From Hippea sp. KM1 (GTDB taxonomy: Bacteria; Campylobacterota_A; Desulfurellia; Desulfurellales; Hippeaceae): a DNA stretch of 64,000 nucleotides. The DNA lies in assembly GCF_000526195.1 (NCBI RefSeq), contig NZ_JAFP01000001.1, positions 310,001 through 374,000 on the forward strand, given 5' to 3'. Position numbers and translations under genes: made by a program. Every line of letters begins with the position of its first letter. Position 1 is the stretch's first letter. The notes under the pieces were generated by a model, which worked only from the letters and a program-made list of their open reading frames with translations, made no database searches and had not been told where the DNA came from. Below, in pieces: positions 42,727-61,356 of the stretch.

Positions 42727-43128
42727 TTAGGGTATATACTTTTCCTTTGAATATGCAACACCCTGCACGGTTGCTATGAGATTATCCTCTTCGTCTTTCA
42801 CCTCTATTTGATAGACAGATGTTTTTCTATTCTTTGATATCCTTTTAGCATAGGCTCTTAATGTGCCTTTCGATGCGGGCTTTACAAATGTGATATTTGC
42901 CGTCAGACTAAGGTTTAGTATGCCTTCTGAATTTGATGCTGCACCAAAGGCCAGATCTGCAAGTGAAAATATGGCTCCGCCCTGAACCACACCTGCGGCG
43001 TTTAGGTGTTTCTCGTCTATCTCCATTTGAGATACAGCATAACCTTCCCTTACCTCTATCAATCTCATGCCGTTGTGAATAGCAAACCTATCGTTGGAGT
43101 TTATCAACTCTTTTACCCTGTTATGCAT
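42727..43128 (-). CDS. PaaI-type hotdog thioesterase
   Basis: A 133-residue hotdog-fold protein with NAAGVVQGGAIFSLADLAFG, the helix and loop carrying the catalytic region of PaaI/4HBT enzymes. It probably hydrolyses acyl- or aryl-CoA. It lies 3 bp after the PP2C gene and may be the last gene of that operon; the LuxC/LuxE-type cluster with CoA-dependent enzymes is only 6 kb away. Confidence 0.85.
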   Translation of the reverse strand: MHNRVKELINSNDRFAIHNGMRLIEVREGYAVSQMEIDEKHLNAAGVVQGGAIFSLADLAFGAASNSEGILNLSLTANITFVKPASKGTLRAYAKRISKNRKTSVYQIEVKDEEDNLIATVQGVAYSKEKYIP

Positions 43129-43131
43129 TTG

Positions 43132-45036
43132 CTAAATATTGCCAGATTTTGCTTTTGATTTCAAGGTGTTGTTTCTATGCAGAACCAAAACAGTGGCATC
43201 ATCGTAAAGCTCTTTTTTGTTTACAAAGGACAATAGCTCTTTTTTGATGACTTCTGAAATGTTTGGTTTTGAGTCTAAGTTTTCTAAAATGAGCCTGTTT
43301 AGCCTGTCGTATCCGAACTGTTCATCCTTATCGTTTGTTGCATCCAAAACGCCATCGCTAAAGATAATTAATGTATCAAAGCTGTCAAGCCTTATCCTTC
43401 TAATTTTAAAGTCAAAATTCTCAAACACGCCAACAGGCAGGTTTTTATCCAAAAGCGGCGTGAATAAGGCATCCCCTTTTATTGCAACAGGCGGCTCATG
43501 GCCCGCATTGCAAAACTCAAGCTCCCCGTTTTGCCCATCTATCAGCCCAATAAACATCGTTGCAAAGTGATTCTGTTTTGTGATGGCGGCAAGGTAGTTG
43601 TTTAAAAAGTTAACCATGTTTTTTATTGAATCCGACTGCTTACTTAAAACATTTATGATGCTCTTTATCATGGCCACATACAAAACAGCCGGAATGCTTT
43701 TTCCCGAAACATCCCCAAGATAGAAGAGGATTTTTCCATCGTTAAGTCTATTTGCACCGTAAAAATCACCGCCCACCTGCCTTGCCCACATGCTAAAGCC
43801 CTCAACCTTAAACCCGCCAAGCTCTATATTTAGTTCATTTGGCACAAAAGCACTCTGGATCTTTTTTGCAAGCTCCAACTCGTTTTCTATCCTTGCCTTA
43901 TCCTTGACCTCTTCGATGTATTTTTTTAGCGATTTCTGCATAACATCCAAGGCCTCTGCTATGGTTTGGGATTCATCGTTAAAGCTTGATGGTATCTCGA
44001 CATCGAAGTTGCCCTTTGCGATTTTGAGCGAGATTTCCTTAATTTTTGATATGTCGCGGGTTATGTTTTTGGATATTAGCAAAATGATTAAAACAACAAA
44101 AGACAGGCCGCCTGCGATGATTAGAAGCGAATAGAGCTTGTATCTTTTGATTTGCAAGAATAGCTCGCTTTTTGGAAAGATCACGCCAAGAATCCAATCC
44201 GTTCCCCTGATTGGCAGACCAAGCAGAAGAAAATGGTTGTTTGCGCTCGATATCTCTAAGTATTTTTTCTCATTATTCAGTATATCCTGCGCAAGGCTTT
44301 TTAGTCTCTGTTTGTCGTATAGCTTTATTATCTGAGAAACGCTGTTTCTCGTTTCTTTATTGACATTTGTTAATAGATCGCCGTTTTTTGTAAAAAGAAA
44401 CGCCCCGCCCGTTTTGAGCACCCTTATTTTGCCAACAATCCTTGATAAGAATCCTATGCTTATATCGGCCGTTGCTATGCCGATGATTTTGCCTGAGCCG
44501 TCTTTAATTAGGGCGCTGTATGTGCTCATCCAGACTCCGCCGCCGCCCTTGTCAAAGTATGGTTCGCTCCACATGTTTCTTTTTAACTCGATAGGCTTTT
44601 TAAACCAGTCGCTTTCTGTGTATCTGTATGATGGCGGTATGAGCTGTTTTTCTAAAATCCTGCCGTCTTTTGCATAGTAATACTGACAATAATACCTCTT
44701 GCCCTTGAAGTATCCCGGGATAAATGCCAAAGCCATGCCATAGATGAATTTGCTCCTTTTTACATCCTCTATCATTAGCCTTTTTACCTCATCGATCGAG
44801 ATAATCCCTTCAGAGACGAGATTTGCTATCTCTTTAGGCCTTGACGAGGTGTTAAAAGTGATTTTCTCGATGTCCCTTGCAGCCTTGTATGCGAGCATGT
44901 TTGCCTTTAGCAAGGAATTGTTATAAAGCGTATCTCTCATGTTAATCTCGCCTATGTAAACAAGAATTGCAAAGATGGGCAGAAGCGTAATGGTTAGATA
45001 AAATATGAGCTTTGCTCTAATGGTTTGAAATCTCAA
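43132..45036 (-). CDS. Membrane sensor PP2C-type (SpoIIE/RsbU) phosphatase
   Basis: A 634-residue partner-switch phosphatase. Transmembrane helix at about 12-30, periplasmic dCache-type sensor domain (about 35-295; contains SDWFKKPIELKRNMWSEPY and IGIATADISIGFL), second helix about 300-325, HAMP (ISLKIAKGNFDVEIP), then a SpoIIE domain with QVGGDFYGANRL, YLGDVSGKSIPAVL, FCNAGHEPP, and LIIFSDGVLDATN. It should dephosphorylate the STAS protein encoded at 45411. It overlaps the kinase gene by 20 bp. Confidence 0.92.
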   Translation of the reverse strand: MRFQTIRAKLIFYLTITLLPIFAILVYIGEINMRDTLYNNSLLKANMLAYKAARDIEKITFNTSSRPKEIANLVSEGIISIDEVKRLMIEDVKRSKFIYGMALAFIPGYFKGKRYYCQYYYAKDGRILEKQLIPPSYRYTESDWFKKPIELKRNMWSEPYFDKGGGGVWMSTYSALIKDGSGKIIGIATADISIGFLSRIVGKIRVLKTGGAFLFTKNGDLLTNVNKETRNSVSQIIKLYDKQRLKSLAQDILNNEKKYLEISSANNHFLLLGLPIRGTDWILGVIFPKSELFLQIKRYKLYSLLIIAGGLSFVVLIILLISKNITRDISKIKEISLKIAKGNFDVEIPSSFNDESQTIAEALDVMQKSLKKYIEEVKDKARIENELELAKKIQSAFVPNELNIELGGFKVEGFSMWARQVGGDFYGANRLNDGKILFYLGDVSGKSIPAVLYVAMIKSIINVLSKQSDSIKNMVNFLNNYLAAITKQNHFATMFIGLIDGQNGELEFCNAGHEPPVAIKGDALFTPLLDKNLPVGVFENFDFKIRRIRLDSFDTLIIFSDGVLDATNDKDEQFGYDRLNRLILENLDSKPNISEVIKKELLSFVNKKELYDDATVLVLHRNNTLKSKAKSGNI

Positions 45037-45418
45037 TCTCTATCCTATTGAAGCCGTTTTCCCTTTTGTATGAGAAGCTTTTTGCCATATTTGTGACCAA
45101 AAAGAGGCCAAAGCCCCCTTCCTTTGTATTCTCTTTTAGCGGCTCGTTGATTCTATCGTCTTTATACTTCGTTGGATCAAATTCATCACCGTCGTATAAA
45201 AACGAAAGCCGAACGCTGTTTGGGCTTGTTTTTATACCAACCTCAACAAATGTGGTGTCTAACTTTACTGCATGCCTGAACATGTTTGTCATGATTTCCT
45301 CGTATATGAGCCTGACTTTGAAGAGTAAGTCGTTGTCTGGTATATGCTTTTTGCAGAAGGTATCGATACCTTTCATGGCGTTTTCAAGCGTATCGCTATT
45401 TAGGTCAATCCTAAACAT
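45017..45418 (-). CDS. RsbW-like anti-sigma/serine kinase ATPase domain protein
   Basis: A 133-residue GHKL ATPase of the HATPase_c_2 type. The N box LIYEEIMTNMFRHA and the G2 loop GGFGLFLVTNMAKSF are intact. In partner switching such proteins bind and phosphorylate a STAS protein and hold a target such as a sigma factor. No sigma factor gene is adjacent. 8-bp overlap with the STAS gene and 20-bp with the phosphatase. Confidence 0.9.
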   Translation of the reverse strand: MFRIDLNSDTLENAMKGIDTFCKKHIPDNDLLFKVRLIYEEIMTNMFRHAVKLDTTFVEVGIKTSPNSVRLSFLYDGDEFDPTKYKDDRINEPLKENTKEGGFGLFLVTNMAKSFSYKRENGFNRIEIEISNH

Positions 45419-45722
45419 CTTTGGCCTTTTTTAAAAAGGAGTAAAAGCCAGCTATGTTTAAGACATTGTCCACCATGCCGTTTGGCTTGTAAATTGAGAC
45501 ATCCTTGTTGATGGCTTTTCTGTCCTTCACCGTGGCGATTATCACCTGCAGGCCTGCACTGCTTATGTATTCCAAATCCTCAAAGTCAAACACAACGCTT
45601 TTGTCGGTTTCCTTTAGCCTTTCCAAAACCGCCTCATAGACCTCTTTGGCGTTTAGGGAATCCAGCTTGCCGTCGATTTTTATAACCAAAACGCCATCTT
45701 TCTCTTTAAATTCCAACCCCAC
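45411..45722 (-). CDS. STAS-domain anti-anti-sigma factor-like protein
   Basis: A 103-residue STAS protein with VLVIKIDGKLDSLNAKEV, the switch segment VVFDFEDLEYISSAGLQVI (Ser-Ser site for phosphorylation) and a C-terminal helix. GTG 45722 (MGLEFKEKDG) is chosen because GAGGAGG lies five bases upstream; the longer TTG 45764 start would add residues that include this RBS and overlap the -10 region. First gene of the partner-switch operon. Confidence 0.9.
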   Translation of the reverse strand: MGLEFKEKDGVLVIKIDGKLDSLNAKEVYEAVLERLKETDKSVVFDFEDLEYISSAGLQVIIATVKDRKAINKDVSIYKPNGMVDNVLNIAGFYSFLKKAKDV

Positions 45723-45764
45723 CTCAACCTCCTCGGTATGCCTGCAAGATATTCTAAACTTCAA

Positions 45765-45793: not shown

Positions 45794-45805
45794 CAAAACC
45801 CACCC

Positions 45806-45838
45806 CCATTTTTCACACCTCGCAAGTGTGAAAAATGG
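45806..45838. repeat. Dispersed palindromic repeat, copy 1
   Basis: Perfect 13-bp arms CCATTTTTCACAC (45806-45818) and GTGTGAAAAATGG (45826-45838) around CTCGCAA. Related copies are at 47112, 47741 and 49060. There is no T run after the stem on either strand, so it is not a typical terminator. Confidence 0.85.
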
Positions 45839-45853
45839 TTGTTTAAATTCCAT

Positions 45854-45916: not shown

Positions 45917-47068
45917 ATGGGTGGTTTTGAAAAAAGGTCGGGGCGCAGGGAATTTGTCAGGAATATTCTTTTTGGGCTGGGCGGATTGGCTTTCGGCTAT
46001 ACACCTTTTGCACTGCTGCCGAAGCAAGCAGAAGCAAGAAGAAGAATGAGTAAAAGGTTAGAAGAGAAGTTAAAAATTGCTGACTTCTACTTCAGCTTTC
46101 ACGACTATTCTAAAAAGGAAGCAGATAGAAGATATAATTTAACTGCAAACCTATTCAACAAAGTTCCACCTATGCTTGTTGAATATTATGCAAGAACAGG
46201 TGATGATACTTTATAGGATGCTTGGGAGTTTATGTTCGATTCCTACAGAACTTGGGAAGATTACAGAACTGCAATGCTATATTTAGATTTACAAAAGGGA
46301 TTTAACCATGGGAGACATTTTGACTTGAAAAGAGCTAAATACGAACCGATGTATGCTGTAGAATACACATTTTTACCTCTTTTTTATCTACCTGGAGATA
46401 TAAAAACACCAAAAGAATTTGACAAAGCAACTCATTATAAAGAAAATATGCCTATGTATTATTACTTTATGGGCGTTGGAGAATTGATTTATTTTTTAGT
46501 AGATGAAGGATATAAGAGTAACAAAACAGACCATGGAGAGGTTGCTGACTATTGTATTAAGATGTTCTCCTCTTCATTATTTGAAACATATTACCCAGGT
46601 AGTGGAAAAAGATTAGGCAGTTTATTCTTCCATGTGGACTTGGATAAAAAGAAAGAAATGATATACGATTTGATTATACCAAAAATAACAGAACACGGAA
46701 CATTAGATAAGCTTTTAGAATACAAAGATAACGAAAATTTGCCTCTAAAAGAGAGGAGAGAACTTTTTTACAAAGGTCTTGTATATGCTCACAACTTACC
46801 TTTGGAGAATCAAATTGAGTATATGAAAAGGTTGTGGGCTTCCGCAGCTATCACTGCATTAGATAGTGCCTATGCGTTAGGTTACTTGTTTGTAACAGGG
46901 TATTATCATTGGTATATTAAAAAAACTTATCTAAAACCTCTAGACATAATATTTTACAACTTAGAAAAACCATATAATTTACGAAATGGTCGGAAAAATT
47001 ACCTGCCATTTGTTCGAGGTCCTGTTTTTATTTACCGAGGTTATATGAGTAATGAAATTTTATTTTAA
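45917..47068 (+). pseudogene. Tat-exported protein of unknown function, interrupted by an in-frame TAG
   Basis: One continuous frame of 383 codon positions is broken only by TAG at 46214-46216 (codon 100), between ...ARTGDDTL and DAWEFMFDSY... The N-terminus SGRREFVRNILFGLGG with an AEA site near residue 38 is a twin-arginine signal, so the product would be exported folded. The rest (rich in Tyr, Phe, Lys) matches nothing I recognise. Base composition is plainly more AT-rich than the core genes, suggesting transfer. Either a nonsense mutation, a sequencing error, or rare readthrough; ATG 46232 could start a leaderless remainder. Confidence 0.75.
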
Positions 47069-47111
47069 ATTATTTCCGAAAATTAACTTTACCAATTCAG
47101 AAATCTCCTCC

Positions 47112-47143
47112 CCATTTTTTGCACCTACGAGGTGCAAAAATGG
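47112..47143. repeat. Dispersed palindromic repeat, copy 2
   Basis: CCATTTTTTGCACCT (47112-47126) and AGGTGCAAAAATGG (47130-47143) around ACG; one T is unpaired. Same outer arms as copy 1 but a different, fully palindromic centre. It lies 43 bp after the Tat protein gene. Confidence 0.85.
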
Positions 47144-47169
47144 TCGGCTGACAAAATCCCTTCACCACA

Positions 47170-47740: not shown

Positions 47741-47775
47741 CCAAAAATTCGCACCTCGCAAGTGTGCAAAAGCGG
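47741..47775. repeat. Dispersed palindromic repeat, copy 3 (degenerate)
   Basis: CCAAAAATTCGCAC, CTCGCAA, GTGTGCAAAAGCGG. The centre equals copy 1 and 4 but the arms have decayed. It separates hicBA from the RhuM-Fic gene, ending 5 bp from the latter's stop. Confidence 0.65.
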
Positions 47776-49059: not shown

Positions 49060-49091
49060 CCATTTCTTGCACCTCGTAAGTGAAAAAATGG
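49060..49091. repeat. Dispersed palindromic repeat, copy 4
   Basis: CCATTTCTTGCAC, CTCGTAA, GTGAAAAAATGG: imperfect arms, same centre type as copies 1 and 3. It ends 3 bp before the stop codon of the LuxC-PaaK fusion gene. Confidence 0.75.
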
Positions 49092-49093
49092 TT

Positions 49094-51793
49094 TTAGATT
49101 CTTTCATCCACGATAAGTCTGATTTTGCCGGTTCGTGGGTTTCTCTCTATTTCGTTTTGCTTTACAACCTCAACGGCTACATCGTTGATTAAGCCCCTCT
49201 CAAACATCGCCCGCATCTCTTTTGATTTGTCGTATATGGCCTTTTTTAGCTTTTCAGCCATATCTTTGTAGCCACTCTCATTATCGCTCATGGCCTCAAC
49301 CTTTACCCTTAACCTATCCTTCTTATCCAAGATTTCTGCAATAAGTTGGAAGTGGCTGCTCAAGCCCTTAACCTCATAAACAGCCTCAGCCACAACCTCA
49401 GGATGAATATTGCCGCCGCCTATAATCAACACATCATCGCTTCTTCCCAAAAGCTCAAACACCCTTGTTCTGCGCCCGCATTGGCAGTCCATATCGACCC
49501 ACCTGCCCAAATCTCCAACCTCATATCGAATCGTCGGCATAAGCTTTCTGTGCAGGTTCGTCACAACAATGCGCCCAATCTCTCCGGGCTTGCACGGCTT
49601 GCCTTCATCATCCAAAATCTCGACATAGTGCAAGTCCTCATGGACATGGTGCAGGCCGTCTTTTAGGTATTTACATTGGTACCCTATGGCTCCCGTGTCG
49701 TTTGTCGTATAGCCGGTTGATGCAAACTTTCTAACACCAAGCACCCGTCTTAAATACTCTTTTGCCTCCTTAAAGAGATGCTCACCACCCGTTACGATTT
49801 TCTCAATGGTTAAATCTATCTTGTTCTGCTCAACATACTCAGCAACAGATAAAGCCACAGACGGTATCGTTATAAAGCCGTTTGCACCGAATATTTTTAA
49901 ATTATTTACAATTTCTTCCATTTTCAAATTGCCGCCAATGGGCAGAATCCTGCAGCCTGTGAACTCAAGCGCCATATTGTATGACACAAAACTTGCCCAC
50001 ATATTACCTGCAAAAAGCAGATTTGCCACCACATCGTTTTCGTCAAAGATTGACAGTTTCAAGCCCTTGCCCAGCTTCAAAGCATTAAACCACTGCTCCT
50101 CAAAGGTCCTGTAAACCACTTTAGGTTTTCCTGTTGTGCCGCCGCTTGAAAAGACATATCCGCCAGAAGCTTCATCGGTCAATAAACCCTCACCATGAGG
50201 CGGAGGCGGCAGATATTTTTTGTAATCATCACCCACCATTAGGGGCAGTTTTTCAAAATCCTCAAATGAATTTATCCTTATACCGCCGTATCTTTTGCTT
50301 AAAAGCGGTGAGTGCTTTTTGGCATAATCGACAATTAACCTTAACCTTTTAAGCGTCAGCTCATCCCTTTCATCATCGGGCAGATAATCAAAATAGTCCT
50401 CTTTCTCGTCGTAGCAGTGCTTTTGAATTGTGATATCCCAGCCTGCATCAAGCTCATCACGAGCCAGTGAAACCCATCTGACAAGCTCAGACAGCCCCCT
50501 CGTTCCGTCGTGCGGTGTTCCGTGCTTTCTAACCGCCATTTTTCCTGCATCAACAAACCTGTCTGCACCGACCAAAGCCAGTTTATCCGCAAGCTCCTTT
50601 GCTTTCTCATTATCTGCAATAATAGAAACACTTTGAACAAACTGCCCCATAGGTTCAACGACTTTCACGACATCGTCCACTTTTTCGACCGGTTTTACAA
50701 AAAGTGTTCGGTTGTGATTGGATATGGTAAACTCAGCAGAGTCCTGATAGATAACGCTTGCAAGTGAGTTTTTTGAAAAGTAGTAATCACCCGTCCCGAA
50801 AGCCTTTGCAACCTTGGCAAGCTCCCTGACCTTTGTAATTTCCACAGCCTCATCTTCAAACACTATTCCCTGGGGTAACTTTTCACCCCAAAAATCAAAC
50901 GCCCTGCCTATCTCAACCATCATCCTCTTTGCAAGCTCTTTTCCTTCAACATAAACCACATGCGGGGATGAGCAGGCAGACTGCTCCCACATAACAGCAT
51001 CACGGGCAATGAACTTTGCCGTCTCTTCTATGCCGCGTTTGAACAGCTCATCCTTTTGCACAACAACAAAGCTGTATTTTGGCCCATACTCTATGAGTTT
51101 GCAGTGTAAACCCTGATTCTTTCTGTATGACATAACGGTCTCTGAGCCGCCGTAAACCACAATGGCATCTAAATTCTGTTTTATAATGTTTTCAATCTCT
51201 TCAGTTCCGCCCTTCCAGTTGATAAGCGCCATAGCCTTGTGCAGAATCCCCGTATCGTCAAGCTCCTTTAGGCTTTTTGCAAAAAGGATGGGGAATATAG
51301 GATCAAGAGTTGACATCTTCATTATGTTTATGTTCTTCGTTGCAAGCCCCTGAATCAGGCTGTCCACACCGCCGACAAAGACATTGCCCGCCGAGACATG
51401 TCCAACAACGCCAAGCGGCTCAGCCTTAATCAAACCCTTAAAGGCGCTGTTGTAAGTCCACTCATTCAGATAGTTCTTATCGCCCAAATCGGCATTGAGC
51501 CTTGCTGTCATACCGCCTCTTGATAGAAGTGAGCACATAGTTTTTATACCCTCTTCAACCATTCTTCTACTGAATCCAATTCTTGAGGGCAGCTCATCCA
51601 AAGCTGTCTTCCTGTATTTGTAATTCTCATCAGCCCAAGCATTCGATACCCTATCAAGCACATCTACAATATCATCGACCTTTAGTTTTGCAGCATCGTT
51701 TTTTAAAGCTTTTGCCCTATCAACAATTGACTGCATATCGGATGGCTTTAGGATACCAAAATCCCTTATCTCTCCAAACAGATAAAACTCCAT
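49094..51793 (-). CDS. LuxC-type acyl-CoA reductase fused to PaaK-like adenylate-forming domain
   Basis: An 899-residue two-domain enzyme. Residues 1-460 match LuxC, the aldehyde-dehydrogenase-type acyl-CoA/acyl-protein reductase of bioluminescence: EPLGVVGHVSAGNVFVGGVD and the nucleophile Cys274 in MWEQSACSSPHVV. Residues about 470-899 are a phenylacetate-CoA-ligase-like domain with SSGGTTGKP (549-557), STGYTTNDTGAIGYQC, YEVGDLGRW and NPRTGKIRLI. Activation and reduction of an acid to an aldehyde in one protein would fit. Last gene of a tight six-gene operon, 3 bp after luxE. The substrate is unknown. Confidence 0.88.
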   Translation of the reverse strand: MEFYLFGEIRDFGILKPSDMQSIVDRAKALKNDAAKLKVDDIVDVLDRVSNAWADENYKYRKTALDELPSRIGFSRRMVEEGIKTMCSLLSRGGMTARLNADLGDKNYLNEWTYNSAFKGLIKAEPLGVVGHVSAGNVFVGGVDSLIQGLATKNINIMKMSTLDPIFPILFAKSLKELDDTGILHKAMALINWKGGTEEIENIIKQNLDAIVVYGGSETVMSYRKNQGLHCKLIEYGPKYSFVVVQKDELFKRGIEETAKFIARDAVMWEQSACSSPHVVYVEGKELAKRMMVEIGRAFDFWGEKLPQGIVFEDEAVEITKVRELAKVAKAFGTGDYYFSKNSLASVIYQDSAEFTISNHNRTLFVKPVEKVDDVVKVVEPMGQFVQSVSIIADNEKAKELADKLALVGADRFVDAGKMAVRKHGTPHDGTRGLSELVRWVSLARDELDAGWDITIQKHCYDEKEDYFDYLPDDERDELTLKRLRLIVDYAKKHSPLLSKRYGGIRINSFEDFEKLPLMVGDDYKKYLPPPPHGEGLLTDEASGGYVFSSGGTTGKPKVVYRTFEEQWFNALKLGKGLKLSIFDENDVVANLLFAGNMWASFVSYNMALEFTGCRILPIGGNLKMEEIVNNLKIFGANGFITIPSVALSVAEYVEQNKIDLTIEKIVTGGEHLFKEAKEYLRRVLGVRKFASTGYTTNDTGAIGYQCKYLKDGLHHVHEDLHYVEILDDEGKPCKPGEIGRIVVTNLHRKLMPTIRYEVGDLGRWVDMDCQCGRRTRVFELLGRSDDVLIIGGGNIHPEVVAEAVYEVKGLSSHFQLIAEILDKKDRLRVKVEAMSDNESGYKDMAEKLKKAIYDKSKEMRAMFERGLINDVAVEVVKQNEIERNPRTGKIRLIVDERI

Positions 51794-51796
51794 AAT

Positions 51797-52918
51797 CTAC
51801 CTCTTTTTTGCCTTTAAAAGTTCTGTTGCACTGATTGCGCATCCCTCATGTTTTTTCACACCAGCCCTGCCCTTTAACTCGATATATTGACGAGTTATTC
51901 CACATGGGCAGTTGGAATTCAGCACTGCATAGTCGGTCGATAAAACGGATATCGCAGGCTGAGCGTAATTGTAAGGCGATAAAACCTGCAAAAGCCCTCT
52001 TTCATTTTCGCCCAAAACCTCTAAAGTCCCCGGTTTTCTGATAAACACCTTTGAGTAAATCGGAATATGAAAGTGGTGCTTTGAGCATGTCATATAAGGA
52101 ACGCCGTGCTCCACAAAACCGTAAATATCCACTATTCTTGATTTATCAATCGACAAAAACTCATTTGTAAGTTCGGCAAACTCATCAAAGGGAATAGCCC
52201 TATTTTGTGCTGTCTTCCAGCCGCCTGCTATGATAATCAGGCTTTCTTTGTTGAAGTTCAATTTCAATCCGTCGCTTTTCATCTTAAGCAGCGCCTCATA
52301 GATAAAAGCGGGAAACCCAATAATCCTTAAAGGCATTGAGTTTTTTGCAAATTCTTTCAATTTTTCAATGGTTTTATCCAGAAAAAACTTTGCATTTGAA
52401 TTTTCATCGGCATCTATGGCAAAGAACTTTTCGTTTTCCGGTGCAAATGTTGAATACATCTGATGGGCATAGGCTGCACCCTTGCCTTGAGAAACCCTTG
52501 GCGAATAGGCAAAAATCAAGTAATTCACGGGCTTTTTACTCACAAGCCCATAGCTTTTTACAATGTTTTCCCTCATCTTGCTCTGCCTGTTCTTTGATGC
52601 CTCATCCCAAGAGATATGGCTTTTCTGTCCGCTTGTTCCGCTTGATGTAAATGTCGCAACCACCTGCGATTTGTCGATAGAGAGCAAATCATACCACTTA
52701 AAAGCATCGACAATAATGTGGGGCAGCTTGTAAAGCTCATCTATTGAGCCTATAGAGTCAAAGCTAAAATTTTCCTGCTCGCAGATGTTTCTGTAAATCT
52801 CGCTGTTTTTATAGTGAAACCCAAAAGCCTCCTTCATTGCATTGAAGAATATGTCGTTACACTCCTTTGTGTCGCAGAAGGCATCCTCAATTTCAAACAG
52901 TTTATCAATCCACTTCAT
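51797..52918 (-). CDS. luxE: LuxE-type acyl-protein synthetase
   Basis: LuxE activates fatty acid with ATP and carries it on a cysteine for LuxC. Seen: TFTSSGTSGQKSHISWDE (adenylation loop), IIGFPAFIYEALL, YGFVEHGVPYMTCSKHHFH, and the C-terminal Cys 14 residues from the end (HEGCAISATELL), in the place of the acyl-accepting Cys of Vibrio LuxE. ATG 52918 has GGAG before it; a longer TTG 52930 is less likely. No luciferase luxAB or transferase luxD is present. Confidence 0.88.
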   Translation of the reverse strand: MKWIDKLFEIEDAFCDTKECNDIFFNAMKEAFGFHYKNSEIYRNICEQENFSFDSIGSIDELYKLPHIIVDAFKWYDLLSIDKSQVVATFTSSGTSGQKSHISWDEASKNRQSKMRENIVKSYGLVSKKPVNYLIFAYSPRVSQGKGAAYAHQMYSTFAPENEKFFAIDADENSNAKFFLDKTIEKLKEFAKNSMPLRIIGFPAFIYEALLKMKSDGLKLNFNKESLIIIAGGWKTAQNRAIPFDEFAELTNEFLSIDKSRIVDIYGFVEHGVPYMTCSKHHFHIPIYSKVFIRKPGTLEVLGENERGLLQVLSPYNYAQPAISVLSTDYAVLNSNCPCGITRQYIELKGRAGVKKHEGCAISATELLKAKKR

Positions 52919-52919
52919 A

Positions 52920-54227
52920 CTAACTCCCAAATCTCTTGTCTATCAAACGCTTAACTTTGCCCGTTATGGGGCTTCTTTCTGAGCTTCCTAATTCGACAAA
53001 CTCAACCTCAAAAACCTTTATAAACTCAACATCGACCGCTTCTTTAAACAGCGGAATCTCATTTTTTAGGTTCTCTTTAATCAAATCAGCATACTTTTTG
53101 CTGTTTTGAGGCTCTGATGACTCTATCCTTAAAATGAAACTCGTCTTTCCATCGTCTATTTCGTCGATTATCACCTGATAGTTTGCGCTTATCCCGTCTT
53201 TTGAGATAAACTCAGAGAAGCACTTTTCAATCTGACCCATCGAAACATAGGCGCCGCCAAATTTAAAATCCTCACCAGCCCTGCCTTTTAGGACAATAAG
53301 CGGATTTTTATCACCGCAGGAGCAGCTTTCCTTTTTTATATAGCCCATATCTCCGATTCGATAGCGTATAACAGGAGATGATATTCTGCCCAGATTGGTA
53401 ACAACGACCTCTCCCAACTCTCCGACATCGCACGGTTTATCCTTTTCAAAGTCATAAATCTCTATGAATTGAAAATCGGTCGGTATGTGGTATTCGCTTG
53501 CTGCACACCTCTTGCACTGATACCCCATAAGACCGCAGTCTGCGCTTGAATAACCGGCAGCCCTTAATCCAACATCACCAAATGCCTCTTTAAGCAGTTT
53601 TCTTGCGTTGTCGCTTAAGTTTTCACCTGCAAACTGAATCATTCTGACACTGTCAAATTTTTTACCCTTTTTCAAAAGCGTGTCTGCAAAGTAAATCAAA
53701 AGGCTTGGAATACTCAAAATTACAGTTGGTTTAAACAGCTCAAAGTAATAAATCAGCTTATCAAAATCGGTTATTGCCGATATGGGCAGATGCACAGCAC
53801 CTATCTCTTTTATGATTTCATGACCGCCAAGAAACGATGGCCACATATTGCCAGCCACAAACAAGTTTGCAACAATGTCTTTTTTATTTACTCCGAGTAC
53901 CTTTAAGGCATTTGCCTGAACAAAAGCAAATTTATCCCACTCATCGTGCGTAAGACTGCTGAAGCGGGCAACACCGCTTGTGCCGCCTGTTGATACGATA
54001 ATCATATCCTCAATATCCACTGTGAGCATCGCTTTTGTGTTGGGATAGGCGTTGTTTCTTATCTCATCACGGCTAAGAAAAGGAATCTTCAGCCAATCCT
54101 CATAGCTTTTAATCTCGCCCAATCCTTTGTATTTTTCCTTAAAATACCCGCTTTTGCTTTTTGCTGCATTGAATATATCTATTGCCTTTTCAAGCTGCTT
54201 GTTAAAATCGTAATACTCAAAAATCAT
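52920..54227 (-). CDS. PaaK-like adenylate-forming enzyme B
   Basis: A 435-residue member of the phenylacetate-CoA ligase family: IVSTGGTSGVARFSS (P-loop), AAGYSSADCGLMGYQC, IRYRIGDMGYI and SPITGKVKRLID. It has two CxC/CxxC cysteine groups (YQCKRCAAS, CSCGD) that may bind zinc. It is homologous to the C-terminal half of the LuxC fusion and to the next gene, so the operon encodes three PaaK-like domains plus LuxE. Substrate unknown. Two bases separate it from luxE. Confidence 0.82.
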   Translation of the reverse strand: MIFEYYDFNKQLEKAIDIFNAAKSKSGYFKEKYKGLGEIKSYEDWLKIPFLSRDEIRNNAYPNTKAMLTVDIEDMIIVSTGGTSGVARFSSLTHDEWDKFAFVQANALKVLGVNKKDIVANLFVAGNMWPSFLGGHEIIKEIGAVHLPISAITDFDKLIYYFELFKPTVILSIPSLLIYFADTLLKKGKKFDSVRMIQFAGENLSDNARKLLKEAFGDVGLRAAGYSSADCGLMGYQCKRCAASEYHIPTDFQFIEIYDFEKDKPCDVGELGEVVVTNLGRISSPVIRYRIGDMGYIKKESCSCGDKNPLIVLKGRAGEDFKFGGAYVSMGQIEKCFSEFISKDGISANYQVIIDEIDDGKTSFILRIESSEPQNSKKYADLIKENLKNEIPLFKEAVDVEFIKVFEVEFVELGSSERSPITGKVKRLIDKRFGS

Positions 54228-54230
54228 ATC

Positions 54231-55574
54231 TTACCCCTTTATGAACTTGTGTTTTTTCACTGCCTGTTTTTGAGAGATTTCCTTAATCTCAACATTGATA
54301 AGCTCTATATCTGCAGCCTTTGTTAGGCTGTCGTATTTTGCGTTGAATTCACGAGAGTATGACTTTAAGAACTCAATAAGCTTATCCTTACAGTATTTCT
54401 CTTTGTCTTTGTTTTCGCCGTCTGTGTAAACGGTGAAGTAGAATGTGTCTATGCCTTCAATCTTTTTCTGCTCAACCTCAAAAACACCGCTGTATTTTAG
54501 CTCTTTTAGTGAATAGAAGAACCTGCCGATTTGGGGGATTTTCAGATTTGTGCCGTAAAAGACGACGCTGTCTGAAACCCTGCCGAATATGCATATCATC
54601 TCATCGGGAAGGCCTTGGTATAAACTTTTAGGAATTTTGCCTTCAAATTCTCCTTTTTCAAGCAAAATGCCAGAATCCTTCGTATCGTAGCGAATCAGGG
54701 GTATAAGCTGATCCTTTGTAACAACAATACTGCCGTCTATAATCTCAACAAACGCACTACTTGTCCTTTTCATTATCATCGGCGGATCGTCCGTATCAAA
54801 AAGCTCTCTGCATAAAGCGGAGTTTTCCAGCAAAAACCGCCTTAAACCGATTGTTTCTTTCGTCTCCATGCCCAAGTCTCCTGTGTCTGCAGAGCCATAA
54901 CCCGTCCAGAGTGCTACAGCATCGCTTTTGTGTCCGAATTTTAAAGCAATATCTTTTCTAAAGCTTTCTGAGAAATACTCGCCCACAACGGGAAAAAAGA
55001 CGCATCCCTCAAGCAGGTCTTTATCGTCCTTTAAAAGCGAATAGATGATGCTTACATTGGATGCGTTTGTTATCCAGATAAACTGGTCAAAGCTGTTTTT
55101 AAACCTCTTGACGATTTGCTCACCCTCTTTTAGGTCAAGCCCCGGAAGAGCGGTTGTTAATTGATAATCGACTTTGGAAGCAAGGCTGCGCATAGCACAA
55201 GCCAACTGCATCCCGCCAATCCACATACCAAAAGCCAAAGAGACAATAACAAGCGTTCTTTTTTTATCTATTGAGTAGAGAGCTTTGAATGATTCTTCAA
55301 TGGCTTTTAAATACTTTTCCTCATCATCTGCCTGTTTCAACCAATAGACGCTGCCCGTTTTTGAGAACCCGCTTGAAGCACCGATTAGGGAGCATCTTTT
55401 CATCCCATCCTTCCTTGTTGTCTTTTCTATGTCGTATTTCAGAAGGTAGTTTTCCTTTGTCATAATCGGTATATCATCCCACTCTTTGACATTTTCGACA
55501 TTAGAATCTTTTAGGAATTGTCTGTAAGCCTCCACATTTGATTTTACATCCTCAAACAGGGCAAATCTGTCCAC
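54231..55574 (-). CDS. PaaK-like adenylate-forming protein A, P-loop divergent
   Basis: A 447-residue relative of PaaK/LuxE. The core folds are recognisable (WTGYGSADTGDLGMETKE, LIPLIRYDTKDSGILLEK, FGRVSDSVVFYGTNL), but the ATP loop reads SLIGASSGFSKTGSVYW rather than SSGTTGxP, lacking the usual threonine pair. It may have lost or altered adenylation and act as a partner, or use a different substrate. 1-3 bp gaps on both sides place it in the operon. Confidence 0.75.
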   Translation of the reverse strand: MDRFALFEDVKSNVEAYRQFLKDSNVENVKEWDDIPIMTKENYLLKYDIEKTTRKDGMKRCSLIGASSGFSKTGSVYWLKQADDEEKYLKAIEESFKALYSIDKKRTLVIVSLAFGMWIGGMQLACAMRSLASKVDYQLTTALPGLDLKEGEQIVKRFKNSFDQFIWITNASNVSIIYSLLKDDKDLLEGCVFFPVVGEYFSESFRKDIALKFGHKSDAVALWTGYGSADTGDLGMETKETIGLRRFLLENSALCRELFDTDDPPMIMKRTSSAFVEIIDGSIVVTKDQLIPLIRYDTKDSGILLEKGEFEGKIPKSLYQGLPDEMICIFGRVSDSVVFYGTNLKIPQIGRFFYSLKELKYSGVFEVEQKKIEGIDTFYFTVYTDGENKDKEKYCKDKLIEFLKSYSREFNAKYDSLTKAADIELINVEIKEISQKQAVKKHKFIKG

Positions 55575-55575
55575 A

Positions 55576-56772
55576 TCAAGCCTCCTTCAGCTCTTTTATA
55601 AAGCCTATCCTTACGGCGTTTATGCCAATAAAGACACCGCTTAGGAGCAAAACCCACCTAAGACCCACAAGGTCTATAAAGACACCGGTTAGAGCATAGC
55701 TCAACGGCGATAGAGACATAGAGATGGCGCTCAAAAACGACATAATCCTGCCAAGCAGGTTGGCAGGCAGTCTTGTTTGATACAAAGACAACAGGTGCAC
55801 ATTAGCAGCGTTTAAGAAAAATCCTATAAAAAACAGGCTTAAAAGCGTTATGTAAAAATAGTGAATCTCGCCGAATATTACAAACATCAACCCAACCAAA
55901 AAAATCGAAAAGACAATAACATCCCTCGGGTGGGCTTTTATTTTTATTGAACTTAAAATTATGGATGAGCTAAACATACCGAAACCGTAGGATGCCATCA
56001 TGGCTGCTATGCCTTTTGAATCCATGTGATAGATTTTGCCTGCAAATATTGGTATGACAATCGTTATTGCGGCAAAGAAGAAGTTTATAACGGCTGTTTT
56101 ATCCAATAGTTTTGATGCTATCGGCTGGCTTTTTATCGTTCTAAAACCGTCCTTAATTGTTTCAAAAAAGGATAGTTTCACAGCTGTGGTTTCCATTTTT
56201 TTTAGTTTTATGCCCCACAAGAAAAAAGCCGAAAGCAAAAAGGAAAAGCTGTTTGATAAAAATGCAAGCGGAACGCCGATTGATGCAATCAGCCCTGCGC
56301 CTATTATAGGCCCTAAAACAATACTGAAGCTTGATGTGGTTTGGACTATGCCGTTTGCCTGAGTTATGTTTTCTTTTTTTACAATCTGGGGTATTATGGA
56401 CATCGATGCCGGCATAAAATAGGCACTCGCCACAGACATAATCGATGTAAAAAACATAAGGTAAAACAGATTTAGTTTGTGATAATAGGCAAGAAATGCC
56501 AAAGCAAATGTGCAGGCTGACTGAATAATGTCTGTTGCAACCATTATCCTTGCGCGGTTTTTCCTATCGGCTAAAGAGCCTGCAAATGGAAAGACCAAAA
56601 CAGCAGGCAGGCTGAACGATACCATAACAAGGGCGACAACAAGACCCGAATGGCTCCATTTGTAGCTTATCCACAAAAGCACAAGCGAATGAATGCCGTC
56701 GCCGATGCGGGATACAAAGCGGGATAGGAAGTATCTCAAAAAATAACGGTTGGAACTAAATACATTTACCAC
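55576..56772 (-). CDS. MFS exporter (EntS/MefA-like)
   Basis: A 398-residue twelve-helix MFS protein. Motif A FAGSLADRKNRARIM follows helix 2, and VLGPIIGAGLIASIG is a motif C-like antiporter segment of drug/siderophore exporters. It overlaps the upstream gene by 7 bp and precedes the adenylating enzymes by 1 bp. Its place in the operon suggests that it exports the product. Confidence 0.85.
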   Translation of the reverse strand: MVNVFSSNRYFLRYFLSRFVSRIGDGIHSLVLLWISYKWSHSGLVVALVMVSFSLPAVLVFPFAGSLADRKNRARIMVATDIIQSACTFALAFLAYYHKLNLFYLMFFTSIMSVASAYFMPASMSIIPQIVKKENITQANGIVQTTSSFSIVLGPIIGAGLIASIGVPLAFLSNSFSFLLSAFFLWGIKLKKMETTAVKLSFFETIKDGFRTIKSQPIASKLLDKTAVINFFFAAITIVIPIFAGKIYHMDSKGIAAMMASYGFGMFSSSIILSSIKIKAHPRDVIVFSIFLVGLMFVIFGEIHYFYITLLSLFFIGFFLNAANVHLLSLYQTRLPANLLGRIMSFLSAISMSLSPLSYALTGVFIDLVGLRWVLLLSGVFIGINAVRIGFIKELKEA

Positions 56773-58199
56773 AAAACCCTCTTCATCATAGAAACAGAAT
56801 AGTTAAACAGCTCTTTTGCAAAACTGCCGTAAACCTTAATTCTGTCTGTGTCTATCAGCGTGTTTAAATATTGAAACCTAACTGCATCCTTGCCGTCTAA
56901 GATATACGGGGCAACGCCGCAGAAGAAAAAACCCATCTCCTCAATTTTGTCTATATGCTCATCCAAAGGTGCATCGTTTAGCGGTATATTCAAAAATACA
57001 ACCTCGGCCTGGGTTGAGAGTCTTAAGCGGTTGAAGGCGCTTTTTATCTCCTTTGATAGGTTTTTGCTTATGCTGAGGACATTTATCGTTCCAAATCCCC
57101 ACGGTGCGTTGTATTTTGAGTCTATAAGGCTTTCGTTGTCGTATAAGGGCTTAGACGGTGTTTCTGTTTCAAAGTCCAAGTTGCCGTAGATTTTTTTCAT
57201 AATTGCGCTGTGTTTTTCGGGTAGATAGACAAGCCTTTTTTCAGATGCAAGCGGCTTAAAGTACAAGATGCAGCTTTCACGCTCAGATAAAGGCTTTATC
57301 TCCATTTTCTTGTAGTTGAACTCCTTTGGAACCAAGCCAAACGACACGCCGCAGGCCTTAGAGCCGAATTCCTCGTTGATCTTCTGCGTTCCTGTATGGC
57401 TTGTTACAGGCTGTGAAAAGATGCCCTTTAGCTTCAAATCTAAAGCTAATTCTTCCAATTTCTTGCGCATGCTTTTGGCAAGCTTCTTACCCCTATATGC
57501 AGGGTCAACCGCCGCCTGCCCCAATTCGGCCACCGATTTGCTTGATAGCTTCTCTATCGCATAATGCCCGACAACCTTGCCGTATTTTTTGTCAATGGCC
57601 GTTATGGAGATAAGCTCCTTGCTCTTGTTCATCGCCTCTATCACTTCGGGGTAATACATATCGCCGTTTGGATAGCTATAACCGTAGGTTTTGTAAATTA
57701 GCCTTGAAACCTGATATGCATTTTTTGGTTTTAATGGCTCAATATAAATCTCATCCGACGGCTCTTCTTCACTTTCTTGCTCGAATAACATCTCGTATTG
57801 GGTTATATCCTTCTGTGGTTTGTTAAACAGAAGCCTTAGCTCCTTGCCCTCTTTGCCGTGGTTAACCCAGATGAGCCTGTCGCAGTAAGCCTGTATGAGG
57901 CTTAGGCTAAGTTTTTCTGTCTCGTTTGACTCATCGGCTTTGGGCAGTGGTATGCCCTTATCAAAAAATGAAACTATGAAGTGTTTTGGATCTATCCTTG
58001 TAATAATCCTTATTATTCTACTTTCTTTGTCGGCCTTTAGAAGCCTCAAGACATAGGAAAACGCCTCTTCGGCTATTAAGTAGAATCGGTCCAATTCCTC
58101 TTTCTCAAAGCCAGAGACCCTGGCCGATTCAACTATAAAGGACTGAACGATCCTCAACGAGACCAAATCATCCTGCACTGATAATTCAAAGTTTATCAT
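56766..58199 (-). CDS. RsbW-like HATPase-GNAT acetyltransferase fusion
   Basis: A 477-residue protein. Residues 1-130 follow the RsbW/HATPase_c_2 outline (LYLIAEEAFSYVLRLL at the N-box place, FDKGIPLP at G1), but the N-box asparagine is replaced (EEAFSY) and the glycine-rich G2 loop is absent, so ATP binding is doubtful. Residues about 155-300 are a GNAT domain with GQAAVDPAYRGKKLAKSM, the acetyl-CoA loop; a further 170 residues resemble a second GNAT-like fold. First gene of the operon; could acetylate the product or regulate. ATG 58199; GTG 58202 is also possible. Confidence 0.8.
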   Translation of the reverse strand: MINFELSVQDDLVSLRIVQSFIVESARVSGFEKEELDRFYLIAEEAFSYVLRLLKADKESRIIRIITRIDPKHFIVSFFDKGIPLPKADESNETEKLSLSLIQAYCDRLIWVNHGKEGKELRLLFNKPQKDITQYEMLFEQESEEEPSDEIYIEPLKPKNAYQVSRLIYKTYGYSYPNGDMYYPEVIEAMNKSKELISITAIDKKYGKVVGHYAIEKLSSKSVAELGQAAVDPAYRGKKLAKSMRKKLEELALDLKLKGIFSQPVTSHTGTQKINEEFGSKACGVSFGLVPKEFNYKKMEIKPLSERESCILYFKPLASEKRLVYLPEKHSAIMKKIYGNLDFETETPSKPLYDNESLIDSKYNAPWGFGTINVLSISKNLSKEIKSAFNRLRLSTQAEVVFLNIPLNDAPLDEHIDKIEEMGFFFCGVAPYILDGKDAVRFQYLNTLIDTDRIKVYGSFAKELFNYSVSMMKRVLW

Positions 58200-58208
58200 C
58201 ACTACCCC

Positions 58209-58379: not shown

Positions 58380-58436
58380 TATTGAAGAGCTTGATTGTTG
58401 AAAAGAGCGATGGATGTGTAAATAGGAGGTATGATG

Positions 58437-59192
58437 ATGAAAAATGAGGAATCATTTGAGCAGAAACTCTGGAAAGCTGCAGATAAACTAAGAAAAAATA
58501 TCGATGCTGCTGAATATAAGCATGTAGTGTTGGGTTTGATATTCTTAAGATATATTTCCGATGCTTTTGAAAATTTATATGAAAAGCTAAAAAAAGGTGA
58601 AGGTGAATACGCAGGAGCTGACCCTGAAGATGTGGATGAATACAGAGCCGAAAATGTCTTTTATGTTCCCCAAAAAGCAAGATGGGGATATCTAAAGGCA
58701 AATGCGAAAAAACCTGAGATTGGAAAGATTTTAGATGAAGCGATGGAGTTAATTGAAAAAGAAAACCCTTCACTCAAGGGTGTACTTCCTAAAGTTTATT
58801 CCAGAGGTAATCTTGATCCAATTAGCCTTGGTGGTCTTATCGATTTGTTCAGTAATGTGGCATTTGATGAAGCAAAGGAGAAAAGTGCAGATATTTTAGG
58901 ACATGTTTTTGAGTATTTTCTTGGTCAATTTGCACTTGCAGAAGGAAAAAAAGGGGGGCAGTTTTACACTCCAAGAAGCGTTGTTGAATTATTAGTTGAA
59001 ATGCTTGAACCTTATAGAGGCAGGGTTTTTGACCCTTGCTGTGGTTCTGGTGGTATGTTCGTTCAATCTGAGAAATTTGTCAAAGAACATCAAGGAAAAA
59101 TAGGTGATATTTCAATTTATGGCCAGGAAAGCAATCAAACAACATGGCGTCTCTGTAAAATGAATCTTGCAATAAGGAGTATTGACTCTATA
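58437..59192 (+). pseudogene. hsdM: HsdM (type I DNA methyltransferase), N-terminal part, cut by IS3 element
   Basis: N-terminal helical domain ([20 protein letters not shown], then [15 protein letters not shown]) and the SAM-binding motif [16 protein letters not shown]. Coding runs to [13 protein letters not shown], then enters the insertion element and stops at 59204. The 3' part resumes at 60580 in the same codon phase. Three successive ATGs (58431, 58434, 58437); the last has correct RBS spacing. The methyltransferase is divided between its SAM motif and its NPPF catalytic motif, so it should be inactive. Confidence 0.9.
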
Positions 59193-59230
59193 ATGCCCCC
59201 GTAAACTTCATCAGATTTTTGAACACTTCT

Positions 59231-59258
59231 CTTCTCAAATCTGATAAGATTTGAGAAG
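59231..59258. repeat. Hairpin upstream of the IS3 transposase
   Basis: CTTCTCAAATCT (59231-59242), GATA, AGATTTGAGAAG (59247-59258), perfect 12-bp arms; a second pair ATCAGAT (59261-59267) / ATCTGAT (59276-59282) follows. Such structures can protect IS elements from read-through transcription. Confidence 0.75.
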
Positions 59259-59319
59259 TAATCAGATGTTCTTAAATCTGATTTAGTCTTAAAAGTTTGA
59301 TTGATTTGAGGAGGTTGTT

Positions 59320-60492
59320 GTGTCAAAGAAACACAGAAAGTTTTCTTCTGAGTTTAAGGCCAAAGTGGTCTTAGAGTTGTTGGAAGGTGACAAGAGTGTA
59401 AGTGAGATTGCATCCAAATACGGCATATTACCTAAATCCATACATCAGTGGAAGAAGCAGTTTTTGGAGAATGCATCCTTAGCCTTTGAGAATGCTGTCC
59501 CGGCAAAGAAGTATAAGGAAGAGATAAGAGAGAAGGAATCCCAAATTGAGGCTCTATCCAAAGCATTGGGTCAGGCTACCATAGAAAGGGACTGGGTATT
59601 AAAAAAATTAAAGAGCTTGGGCTTGAAGACTAAGAAGAGCCTGGTGGAGCCCAAGCTCAAAAACCTTTCAATCACCAGGCAAACAGAGCTTTTAGGGATG
59701 AACAGGTCTACACTGTATTACAAGAACAAGCCAGAGATTTCAGAAGAAGACATAGAAATCATGAATGCCATTGATGAGATATACACAGAGTTTCCATACT
59801 ACGGATACAGAAGGATATACCACCAGTTGAGAAGAAAAGGCTTTGATAATGTGGGAAAGAGAAGAATAACAAGGTTCATGAAGATTATGGGCATAAGGGC
59901 TTTATATCCCAAAAGGAAGAGATTTAAAACAACAGAATTGGATAAGAACACAAAGGCCTATCCATATCTGCTAAACGACATAATACCCACAAAGCCCAAT
60001 CAGGTATGGGTCTCAGATATCACATACATCAGGCTCTGTAAGGGCTTTGCCTATCTGTGCGTCATAATGGACCTAAAATCAAGGGCTGTATTATCACACA
60101 AACTATCACCAACAATGGATGATGAACTTGTTGTAAGGACTATAGAATCTGCTATAGAAAAATACGGAAGACCCGATATCTTCAACTCTGACCAGGGGAG
60201 CCAATACACCTCAAACAGGACAATAGAGCTTCTAAAGAAACACAACATATCCATATCCATGGATGCCAAGGGCAGGTGTTTTGACAACATACACATGGAG
60301 AGGTTCTTCAGAAGCTTAAAACAGGAGAATATCTATCCAAGCTGCTATGAGAGATTCAAAGACGCAAAAACTGGAATAGATGAATACATACACACCTACA
60401 ATAGCAAGAGATTACACTCTGCTATTGGATATAAGACGCCTTTTGAGGTATATGGGTGTATGTCAGAAACAAAAGAAAACATAGTTGCTTGA
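59320..60492 (+). CDS. IS3-family transposase, OrfA and OrfB fused in one frame
   Basis: A 390-residue transposase. Residues 1-95 are OrfA-like: HTH (SEFKAKVVLELLEGDKSVSE, then IASKYGILPKSIHQWKKQF) and a leucine-zipper stretch. The rest is OrfB with an HTH_21 segment (YYGYRRIYHQLRRKG) and the DDE core: WVSDITYI, FNSDQGSQYT, and Glu in HMERFFRSLKQENI. Usually orfA and orfB need a -1 frameshift; here the frame is continuous, though an A7 run (59601-59607) remains at the junction. GTG start with GAGGAGG five bases upstream. Looks active. Confidence 0.93.
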   Translation: MSKKHRKFSSEFKAKVVLELLEGDKSVSEIASKYGILPKSIHQWKKQFLENASLAFENAVPAKKYKEEIREKESQIEALSKALGQATIERDWVLKKLKSLGLKTKKSLVEPKLKNLSITRQTELLGMNRSTLYYKNKPEISEEDIEIMNAIDEIYTEFPYYGYRRIYHQLRRKGFDNVGKRRITRFMKIMGIRALYPKRKRFKTTELDKNTKAYPYLLNDIIPTKPNQVWVSDITYIRLCKGFAYLCVIMDLKSRAVLSHKLSPTMDDELVVRTIESAIEKYGRPDIFNSDQGSQYTSNRTIELLKKHNISISMDAKGRCFDNIHMERFFRSLKQENIYPSCYERFKDAKTGIDEYIHTYNSKRLHSAIGYKTPFEVYGCMSETKENIVA

Positions 60493-60579
60493 AAAGGAGG
60501 TGAGTAGTCCTGTTAACTGAGGGTTAAGGAGAGAGAAGGAAAAGGGAAATGGGAAGAATTGACTTGACAAGTGGGGGCA

Positions 60580-61356
60580 ATATACTCATCGCAGGTTAAA
60601 TGGAATCCGGAAGGTTCATTCTTAAATGATGCCCATAAAGATTTAAAAGCGGATTTTGTAATTGCCAATCCACCTTTTAATGATAGTGATTGGAGTGGTG
60701 AATTACTCAGAAAAGATGTTAGATGGAAATATGGAGTTCCTCCTGCAGGAAATGCAAATTATGCATGGATACAACACTTTATTTTTCATCTTGCACCCCA
60801 CGGAAAAGCGGGTTTTGTTTTGGCTAAAGGTGCTTTGACCACAAAACAAACAGCTGAATATGAGATTAGGAAAAACATGATAGAGGATGATATCGTTGAT
60901 TGTATCGTAAATCTACCTTCGAAACTTTTTTTGAATACTCAAATACCAGCTTCTTTATGGTTTTTAAGAAAAAACAAAACCACCAGAAAAGGGCAAATCC
61001 TTTTTATTGATGCAAGGGATATGGGAGAGCTGATTAACAGAAGACAGAGGGTTTTAACACCTGAAGATATAAGAAAAATTGCTGATACTTACCATAAATG
61101 GCAGAAAGATGATGAAAGTTATGAGGATATCAAAGGCTTTTGCAAATCTGCCACCATTGAAGAGGTGAGAGAACTTGATTATGTGCTTACTCCAGGAAGG
61201 TATGTAGGCCTTCCTGATGAAGAAGATGATTTTGATTTTGAAGAAAGATTTAAAAAGTTAAAAGCTGAGTTCTTGGAGCAGTTAAAAGAAGAGGAAAGAT
61301 TGAATAAACTTATTTTGGAAAATCTGGAAAAAATAGAAATAAATTCTGAAGGATGA
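60580..61356 (+). pseudogene. hsdM: HsdM, C-terminal part downstream of the IS3 element
   Basis: Continues the interrupted gene from IYSSQVKWNPEGSFLNDA through the catalytic motif FVIANPPFNDSDW, MIEDDIVDCIVNLPSKLFLNTQIPASLWFL and the C-terminal coiled coil ending LENLEKIEINSEG. A GTG at 60571 inside the element end could allow translation of this fragment, but without the SAM site it cannot methylate. Three bases precede the next gene. Confidence 0.9.

Follow-up and report, generated by a model that had tools for sequence, protein, structure and literature searches.

Gene content and layout of the operon

The window, the 64,000-nucleotide stretch of DNA analysed here, carries on its minus strand, between positions 58202 and 49094, all six open-reading frames that a first-pass annotation had placed there, with the start of the first gene moved from 58199 to 58202. 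From 5′ to 3′, the operon comprises a 478-aa fusion of a degenerate HATPase and a GNAT (56766..58202; HATPase at residues ~ 1–140, GNAT at ~ 150–290, and a conserved C-terminal region extending to 478), a 398-aa MFS exporter (55576..56772; MFS E = 4e-38, nearest NCBIfam model H+ antiporter 2A0121, EntS- and Mef-like), a 447-aa divergent PaaK-like protein (54231..55574), a 435-aa PaaK-like AMP-forming ligase recognized by a PaaK-type profile match (52920..54227), a 377-aa LuxE acyl-protein synthetase (51797..52930; PF04443 E = 5e-45), and an 899-aa LuxC-PaaK fusion (49094..51793; LuxC at residues 35–440, PF05893 E = 3e-90, and a PaaK-type ligase at ~ 470–899). The original domain assignments held, that of the 447-aa protein as PaaK-like by profile–profile comparison only, with a match to the PaaK set at 98.8% probability. 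Spacings computed from the listed starts, from gene 1 to gene 6, are − 7, + 1, + 3, − 11, and + 3 bp. The − 11 depends on a TTG start of LuxE that is uncertain. A single promoter had also been proposed, but promoter-like matches occurred at chance level (26 observed vs 21.4 ± 4.7 expected).

Two relatives contain full-length orthologues of the genes in the same order, and dN/dS values of 0.05–0.10 for the five operon genes where measurable show purifying selection, indicating that the six genes are more than chance reading frames. The region around the operon is accessory and contains IS3 and toxin–antitoxin remnants as well as a type I methylase that is split; the host of the operon is a relative of heat-loving sulfur bacteria.

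Catalytic residues and comparison with known systems

The LuxC half of the fusion retains the catalytic Cys274, which is conserved in 98% of 41 fusions and aligns with the LuxC chain of PDB 7xc6, and the C-terminus is a PaaK-type AMP-binding domain in which both the P-loop (SSGGTTGKPK) and Lys890 are conserved. LuxE has the P-loop TSSGTSG and an acyl cysteine, Cys364, found in 32/34 sequences and aligning with the C-terminal Cys of 7xc6 LuxE; it also carries Cys282, Cys341, and Cys343, which are absent in 7xc6 LuxE. Both stand-alone ligases and the C-terminus of the fusion belong to the PaaK/coenzyme F390 synthetase/BagE-FevW superfamily, and the PaaK-type proteins fall far under every curated cut-off of the named NCBIfam equivalogs, the best PaaK scores being 145.5 and 126.6 of 700 bits. 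The equivalog cut-offs for LuxC (171.7 of 750 bits) and LuxE (114.1 of 550 bits) were likewise missed. Catalytic competence is uncertain for the 447-aa protein, which had zero Pfam or NCBIfam matches, has an altered P-loop (ASSGFSKTGS), and is missing the C-terminal RTGK motif; a homologue sits between two PaaKs at another locus, L115. AlphaFold models of the HATPase-GNAT protein and the fusion reached mean pLDDT of only 49.0 and 48.6, a quality too low for searching by fold.

LuxC and LuxE are classical enzymes of bacterial luminescence. A search of the whole 1.74-Mb single-contig genome with the luciferase model PF00296, which detected 10/14 controls, returned no match, in line with the reported lack of luciferase, and a luminescence function was rejected. 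The operon contains no LuxD, and PF02273 gave no match in the genome, but no control matched this model either. The operon resembles the Lux reductase of 7xc6 in its adjacent genes, in the P-loop and C-terminal acyl Cys of LuxE, and in the catalytic Cys of LuxC; it differs from the luminescence reductase in that its LuxC continues into a PaaK-type ligase, GNAT, PaaK, and MFS genes are added, and the operon is without LuxD. None of the six proteins matches any PADLOC model, and anti-phage defence was rejected on that basis.

In stand-alone carboxylic acid reductase (CAR), activation and reduction occur in one chain. The fusion likewise joins the two, but with the domain order reversed, a LuxC/ALDH-like reductase with a Cys nucleophile, and no carrier domain in a Pfam scan. 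In the grixazone pathway of Streptomyces griseus, an AMP-binding enzyme makes an acyl-AMP that a second protein reduces to an aryl aldehyde (GriC/GriD; PMC10179220). The likeness lies in the chemistry as reported, an AMP-dependent activation and then a reduction; GriC and GriD are two separate proteins in an account without LuxE, and their substrate, 3-amino-4-hydroxybenzoate, comes from dedicated genes (PMC10179220).

Distribution and movement of the cassette

Gene neighbourhoods were counted at 24 loci whose flanks extended for 4 kb or more on each side. LuxE was adjacent to the fusion at 23 of these and a GNAT lay within 6 kb of the fusion at 19, while an MFS gene was present at six. LuxE and the LuxC-PaaK fusion form a cross-phylum module, and export lies outside the core cassette, most core loci being without MFS. 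With the core this widespread, a lone oddity specific to the window was rejected; the six genes are one lineage's elaboration of a common GNAT-LuxE-LuxC/PaaK cassette. The core genes keep each other's company in different phyla instead of having independent conserved neighbours elsewhere, an outcome that favours the earlier interpretation. In the open-access literature searched, no paper was found that unites LuxC, LuxE, and PaaK in one cluster, and the earlier description of a luciferase-free system for activating and reducing acids as undescribed stands within that literature.

A Streptomyces plasmid carries PaaK, MFS, GNAT, LuxE, and the fusion together, and a Salmonella conjugative plasmid carries LuxE, the fusion, PaaK, and GNAT without MFS. 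E. coli genomes contained no copy of the Salmonella cluster, the sole match being a short terminal repeat of ~ 75 bp, and phage records gave nothing more than partial PaaK- or LuxC-like matches. In the host family, the operon is present in 3/16 genomes and the nearest kin of the fusion beyond the family are in Bacteroidales and Muiribacteriota; the operon has therefore moved horizontally. Genomes of one family, f122, commonly carry the GNAT-LuxE-fusion cassette, apparently by vertical inheritance. An encapsulin at locus L113 was considered as an enclosure for the aldehyde enzymes; this was ruled out, as an adjacent small encapsulated-ferritin-like protein ending in LTVGNLFGKN accounts for it.

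Proposed function in acid reduction and export

These features are consistent with an operon encoding a carboxylic acid reductase that uses ATP and NAD(P)H, together with the tailoring and export of a small molecule, a reading that we regard as about evenly balanced between right and wrong. The step from acid to aldehyde is its well-supported part, with aldehyde formation drawn from knowledge of the families. One or more acids would be adenylated by LuxE and by the PaaK half of the fusion, the acyl group would pass to Cys364 of LuxE and/or straight to Cys274 of the LuxC half, and the LuxC half would reduce the thioester to the aldehyde. GNAT, the third conserved member of the core, may transfer an acyl group to or from the reduced material, the acetylation suggested earlier being one option among others, and the extra PaaK pair may activate or join a second acid. 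The MFS protein would export a small product, most likely a secreted specialized metabolite or signal. Retained catalytic residues, joint conservation, plasmid clusters, purifying selection, the absent luciferase, the GriC/GriD precedent, and a sparse horizontal distribution all support the reductase reading; two activation modules for a single reductase, which it does not explain, speak against it. The common, apparently vertical cassette of f122 looks a better fit to a housekeeping role than to a specialized metabolite.

Luminous LuxC and LuxE act on fatty acids. The core cassette could instead make fatty aldehyde or alcohol that ends up in a lipid or surface modification bound to the cell (an ether lipid, a lipoprotein, or a glycolipid), with GNAT acylating the lipid and MFS moving it. 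The frequency of the cassette in f122 favours this, as does a weak match of the MFS protein to the model of the lysophospholipid transporter LplT. So do flagellar glycosylation islands of Aeromonas, where luxE and luxC occur with ACP, a 3-oxoacyl-ACP reductase, and an AMP-dependent synthetase, and thus, as here, beside such a synthetase and outside a lux operon (PMC7874193). Those islands differ in having ACP, a ketoacyl reductase, and glycosyltransferases, and the available part of that report leaves the fusion, GNAT, PaaK pair, and MFS unmentioned. The operon is without ACP, glycosyltransferase, or lipid acyltransferase, the annotations flanking the Streptomyces and Salmonella versions show none either, and the ligases get their highest scores from models of PaaK and F390 synthetase, not from those of fatty acid ligases. 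We consider a lipid role rather unlikely.

Aromatic degradation normally begins with PaaK enzymes, and a location within an accessory region would also suit a route degrading or detoxifying an environmental aryl or fatty acid. Such a role is very improbable, given that the operon is without oxygenase, hydratase, or beta-oxidation genes, that reduction toward the aldehyde runs in the wrong direction for catabolism, and that the MFS protein scores highest with efflux models.

A nearby partner-switching module and the HATPase-GNAT front

On the same strand, 3.3–6 kb downstream of the operon, lies a partner-switching module made up of a 117-aa STAS protein (45411..45764), a 133-aa RsbW-type HATPase that is the best RsbW of the genome (45017..45418), and a 634-aa dCache-HAMP-SpoIIE phosphatase whose SpoIIE domain was the sole one detected genome-wide (43132..45036). 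Their proximity raises the possibility of a circuit in which the operon's product is an exported signal, Cache-SpoIIE is its sensor, and STAS/RsbW partner switching feeds back on the HATPase-fused GNAT. On a Bacteroidales contig, STAS, RsbW, and Cache-SpoIIE directly follow LuxE and the fusion, four loci have a GNAT with a HATPase-like N-terminus, and SpoIIE occurs in 3/3 operon-positive vs 4/13 operon-negative family genomes, a difference that is not significant (p ~ 0.06, by hand). However, the module stands alone at other sites in operon-negative relatives, one copy being flanked by the 386-aa neighbour that it also has here, and is not near the operon in G014 and G008, which weakens the case for the partner-switch genes as operon members.

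The RsbW-like/GNAT fusion described earlier is present (GNAT E = 4e-7), but its HATPase_c_2 match is below the Pfam cut-off (24.6 of 27.4 bits) and key ATP-site residues are missing: the N-box Asn and glycine-rich lid are lost (EEAFSYV and KLSLSL instead), with DKGIP alone kept. The GNATs of the Salmonella and Streptomyces versions are without a HATPase. We judge signalling of this kind unlikely. Against G014, a recombination breakpoint near 57000 marks where the HATPase-GNAT front was exchanged between copies that are otherwise close. A bolder and more doubtful version is an undescribed cross-phylum secreted small-molecule system in which partner switching via the fused pseudo-HATPase would directly control a product-shaping GNAT, the Cache-SpoIIE sensor would close the loop, and recombination would swap the front between strains, as expected of a specificity determinant.

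LuxC and LuxE, with the LuxC-PaaK fusion and GNAT, form a conserved cassette outside the luminous bacterial groups, including on a Salmonella plasmid and in Streptomyces, that generic annotations such as AMP-binding protein and acyl-CoA reductase mask. The clusters are short and easily expressed in a laboratory host, which makes a metabolite or lipid class across several phyla directly testable.

Organization and conservation of the operon

The six open-reading frames reported in the first-pass annotation were confirmed at 58202-49094 of the minus strand, beginning with a HATPase–GNAT fusion (478 aa, 56766-58202) and continuing with an MFS exporter (398 aa), a divergent PaaK-like protein (447 aa), a PaaK-like ligase (435 aa), LuxE (377 aa), and a LuxC–PaaK fusion (899 aa, 49094-51793). 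Spacings in gene order, from the listed starts, are −7, +1, +3, −11, and +3 bp. The LuxC, LuxE, AMP-binding, MFS, and GNAT assignments were likewise matched by Pfam and NCBIfam, with scores far under the curated equivalog cut-offs wherever such cut-offs exist. A single promoter had been proposed, but promoter-like matches were no more frequent than chance. The 447-aa protein matched no Pfam or NCBIfam model; profile–profile comparison, with a profile built from four sequences, matched it to PaaK over 396 columns at 98.8% probability. With an altered P-loop and no C-terminal RTGK motif, this protein may be inactive as a ligase.

The six genes are present in identical order in a Desulfurellaceae MAG (G014, loci L003/L008) and in a genome (G008) of the same genus as the one studied here. 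Compared with L003, five of the genes have dN/dS of 0.05-0.10, while synonymous sites in the HATPase–GNAT gene, unlike those in the other five, are saturated; the operon genes are real and constrained. Nucleotide identity to G014 steps sharply near 57000, inside the HATPase–GNAT gene, with about 0.87 on the downstream side and about 0.66 on the upstream side, and both copies are equally distant from G008 across the breakpoint scan. This is read as recombination in one of the two copies, replacing the HATPase, most of the GNAT domain, and the upstream region.

The LuxC–PaaK fusion in other genomes

The fusion is not confined to this stretch. A profile search of 386 genomes recovered three family members with it and, among distant genomes, four with a full or nearly full copy (G108, G142, G212, and G279), and a search around G279 added more than 20 genomes, mostly of family f122 and its neighbors. 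Among the 41 fusion loci read, 24 had at least 4 kb of flank on both sides; these include many close relatives and are not 24 independent cases. LuxE adjoins the fusion in 23 of the 24 and a GNAT lies within 6 kb in 19, compared with six for MFS and five for a stand-alone PaaK. PaaK, MFS, GNAT, LuxE, and the fusion stand in a row on a plasmid of Streptomyces sp. NBC_00158, and a conjugative plasmid of Salmonella enterica (CP054717.1, L030 9600-15900) carries LuxE, the fusion, PaaK, and GNAT with a Tn3 transposase close by. CP053580.1 has the fusion as well. Searching 5,426 E. coli genomes turned up no copy of the Salmonella cluster. Another locus (G422) contains PaaK, HATPase–GNAT, LuxE, the fusion, MFS, and a second GNAT. 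From these counts and loci, GNAT, LuxE, and LuxC–PaaK make up the core, which the present operon extends with MFS and two PaaK-like proteins. The GNAT position in the core is filled by two subtypes, with profiles that match across the acetyltransferase domain.

In a Muiribacteriota MAG (G390), a homologue of the divergent 447-aa protein lies between two PaaK genes (L115 5357-9369), and the fusion is encoded elsewhere in that genome. At L113 12699-14011 (G411), LuxE and the fusion have as neighbors an encapsulin and a small protein with the C-terminus LTVGNLFGKN, probably an encapsulated ferritin cargo; genes for STAS and SpoIIE proteins are close by.

Predicted chemistry

In the lux system, an acid is adenylated, the acyl group is transferred to Cys, and NADPH reduces it to the aldehyde. 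Cys274 in the LuxC half of the fusion shows 98% conservation and lines up with the catalytic Cys of LuxC in 7xc6, the LuxC–LuxE fatty acid reductase structure. Cys364 of LuxE, present in 32/34, corresponds in the alignment to the C-terminal Cys of LuxE in 7xc6. The SSGGTTGKPK loop and Lys890 of the fusion are also conserved. Given these residues and the established lux biochemistry, LuxE and the fusion would carry out adenylation, acyl transfer to Cys, and then NADPH reduction to an aldehyde. LuxE of this group retains Cys282, Cys341, and Cys343, with a CxCG motif resembling that of the fusion's PaaK half, whereas 7xc6 LuxE lacks all three. GriC/GriD provide a precedent for AMP-binding activation with reduction: an AMP-binding enzyme works with a reductase to form an aryl aldehyde (PMC10179220). 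In the present operon, the GNAT would acylate a target, the PaaK pair would activate an acid, and a product would be exported. A genome-wide search found no luciferase family member, which rules out luminescence and upholds the description of a system without luciferase.

A candidate regulatory module

Downstream of the operon, on the same strand, lie genes for a STAS protein (45411-45764), the best RsbW of the genome (45017-45418), and the only SpoIIE phosphatase found in it, with a dCache sensor (dCache–HAMP–SpoIIE, 43132-45036); with a hotdog (4HBT) thioesterase they form a tight run (42727-45764). On a Bacteroidales contig, LuxE and the fusion are followed directly by STAS, RsbW, and Cache–SpoIIE (37%, 21%, and 28% identity, respectively, to the present proteins). 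This placement and the HATPase carried by the GNAT suggest partner-switch control of the operon, which we nevertheless consider unlikely, since in G014 and G008 the module is not close to the operon and it occurs at other sites in operon-negative relatives, stand-alone in some and in one beside the same 386-aa neighbor as here. That neighbor (45917-47068), with a Tat-like N-terminus and no Pfam match, is split by an in-frame TAG near 46214; its reading frame is open in L128 (3506-4666).

Ancestry and novelty

In a tree of the 41 fusions, the present one clusters with two other Desulfurellaceae, two Bacteroidales MAGs, and one Muiribacteriota MAG (support 99/99), and on this grouping the gene has crossed phyla. 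The operon occurs in 3/16 genomes of the family. Here it lies in an accessory region, with RhuM/Fic and HicAB-like genes, a transposase, and a type I methylase interrupted by IS3 on its flanks. In GC3 the operon resembles the remainder of the window, and base composition thus gives no sign of very recent arrival. The methylase, HsdM (58431-61356), is broken by the IS3-type transposase at 59320-60492. A short sequence of the form 'ccatttttgcacctcgcaagtg...aaaatgg' recurs between genes of the accessory region (45800-45840, 47108-47150, 47748-47775, and 49065-49095).

A full-text search of open-access papers returned no description of LuxC, LuxE, and PaaK in one cluster, consistent with the proposal of an undescribed system, although a prior description in subscription papers may exist. 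Aeromonas flagellar glycosylation islands carry the nearest described LuxE/LuxC set outside luminescence (PMC7874193). We regard the operon as an arrangement of known enzyme families that is conserved, fused, and uncharacterized.
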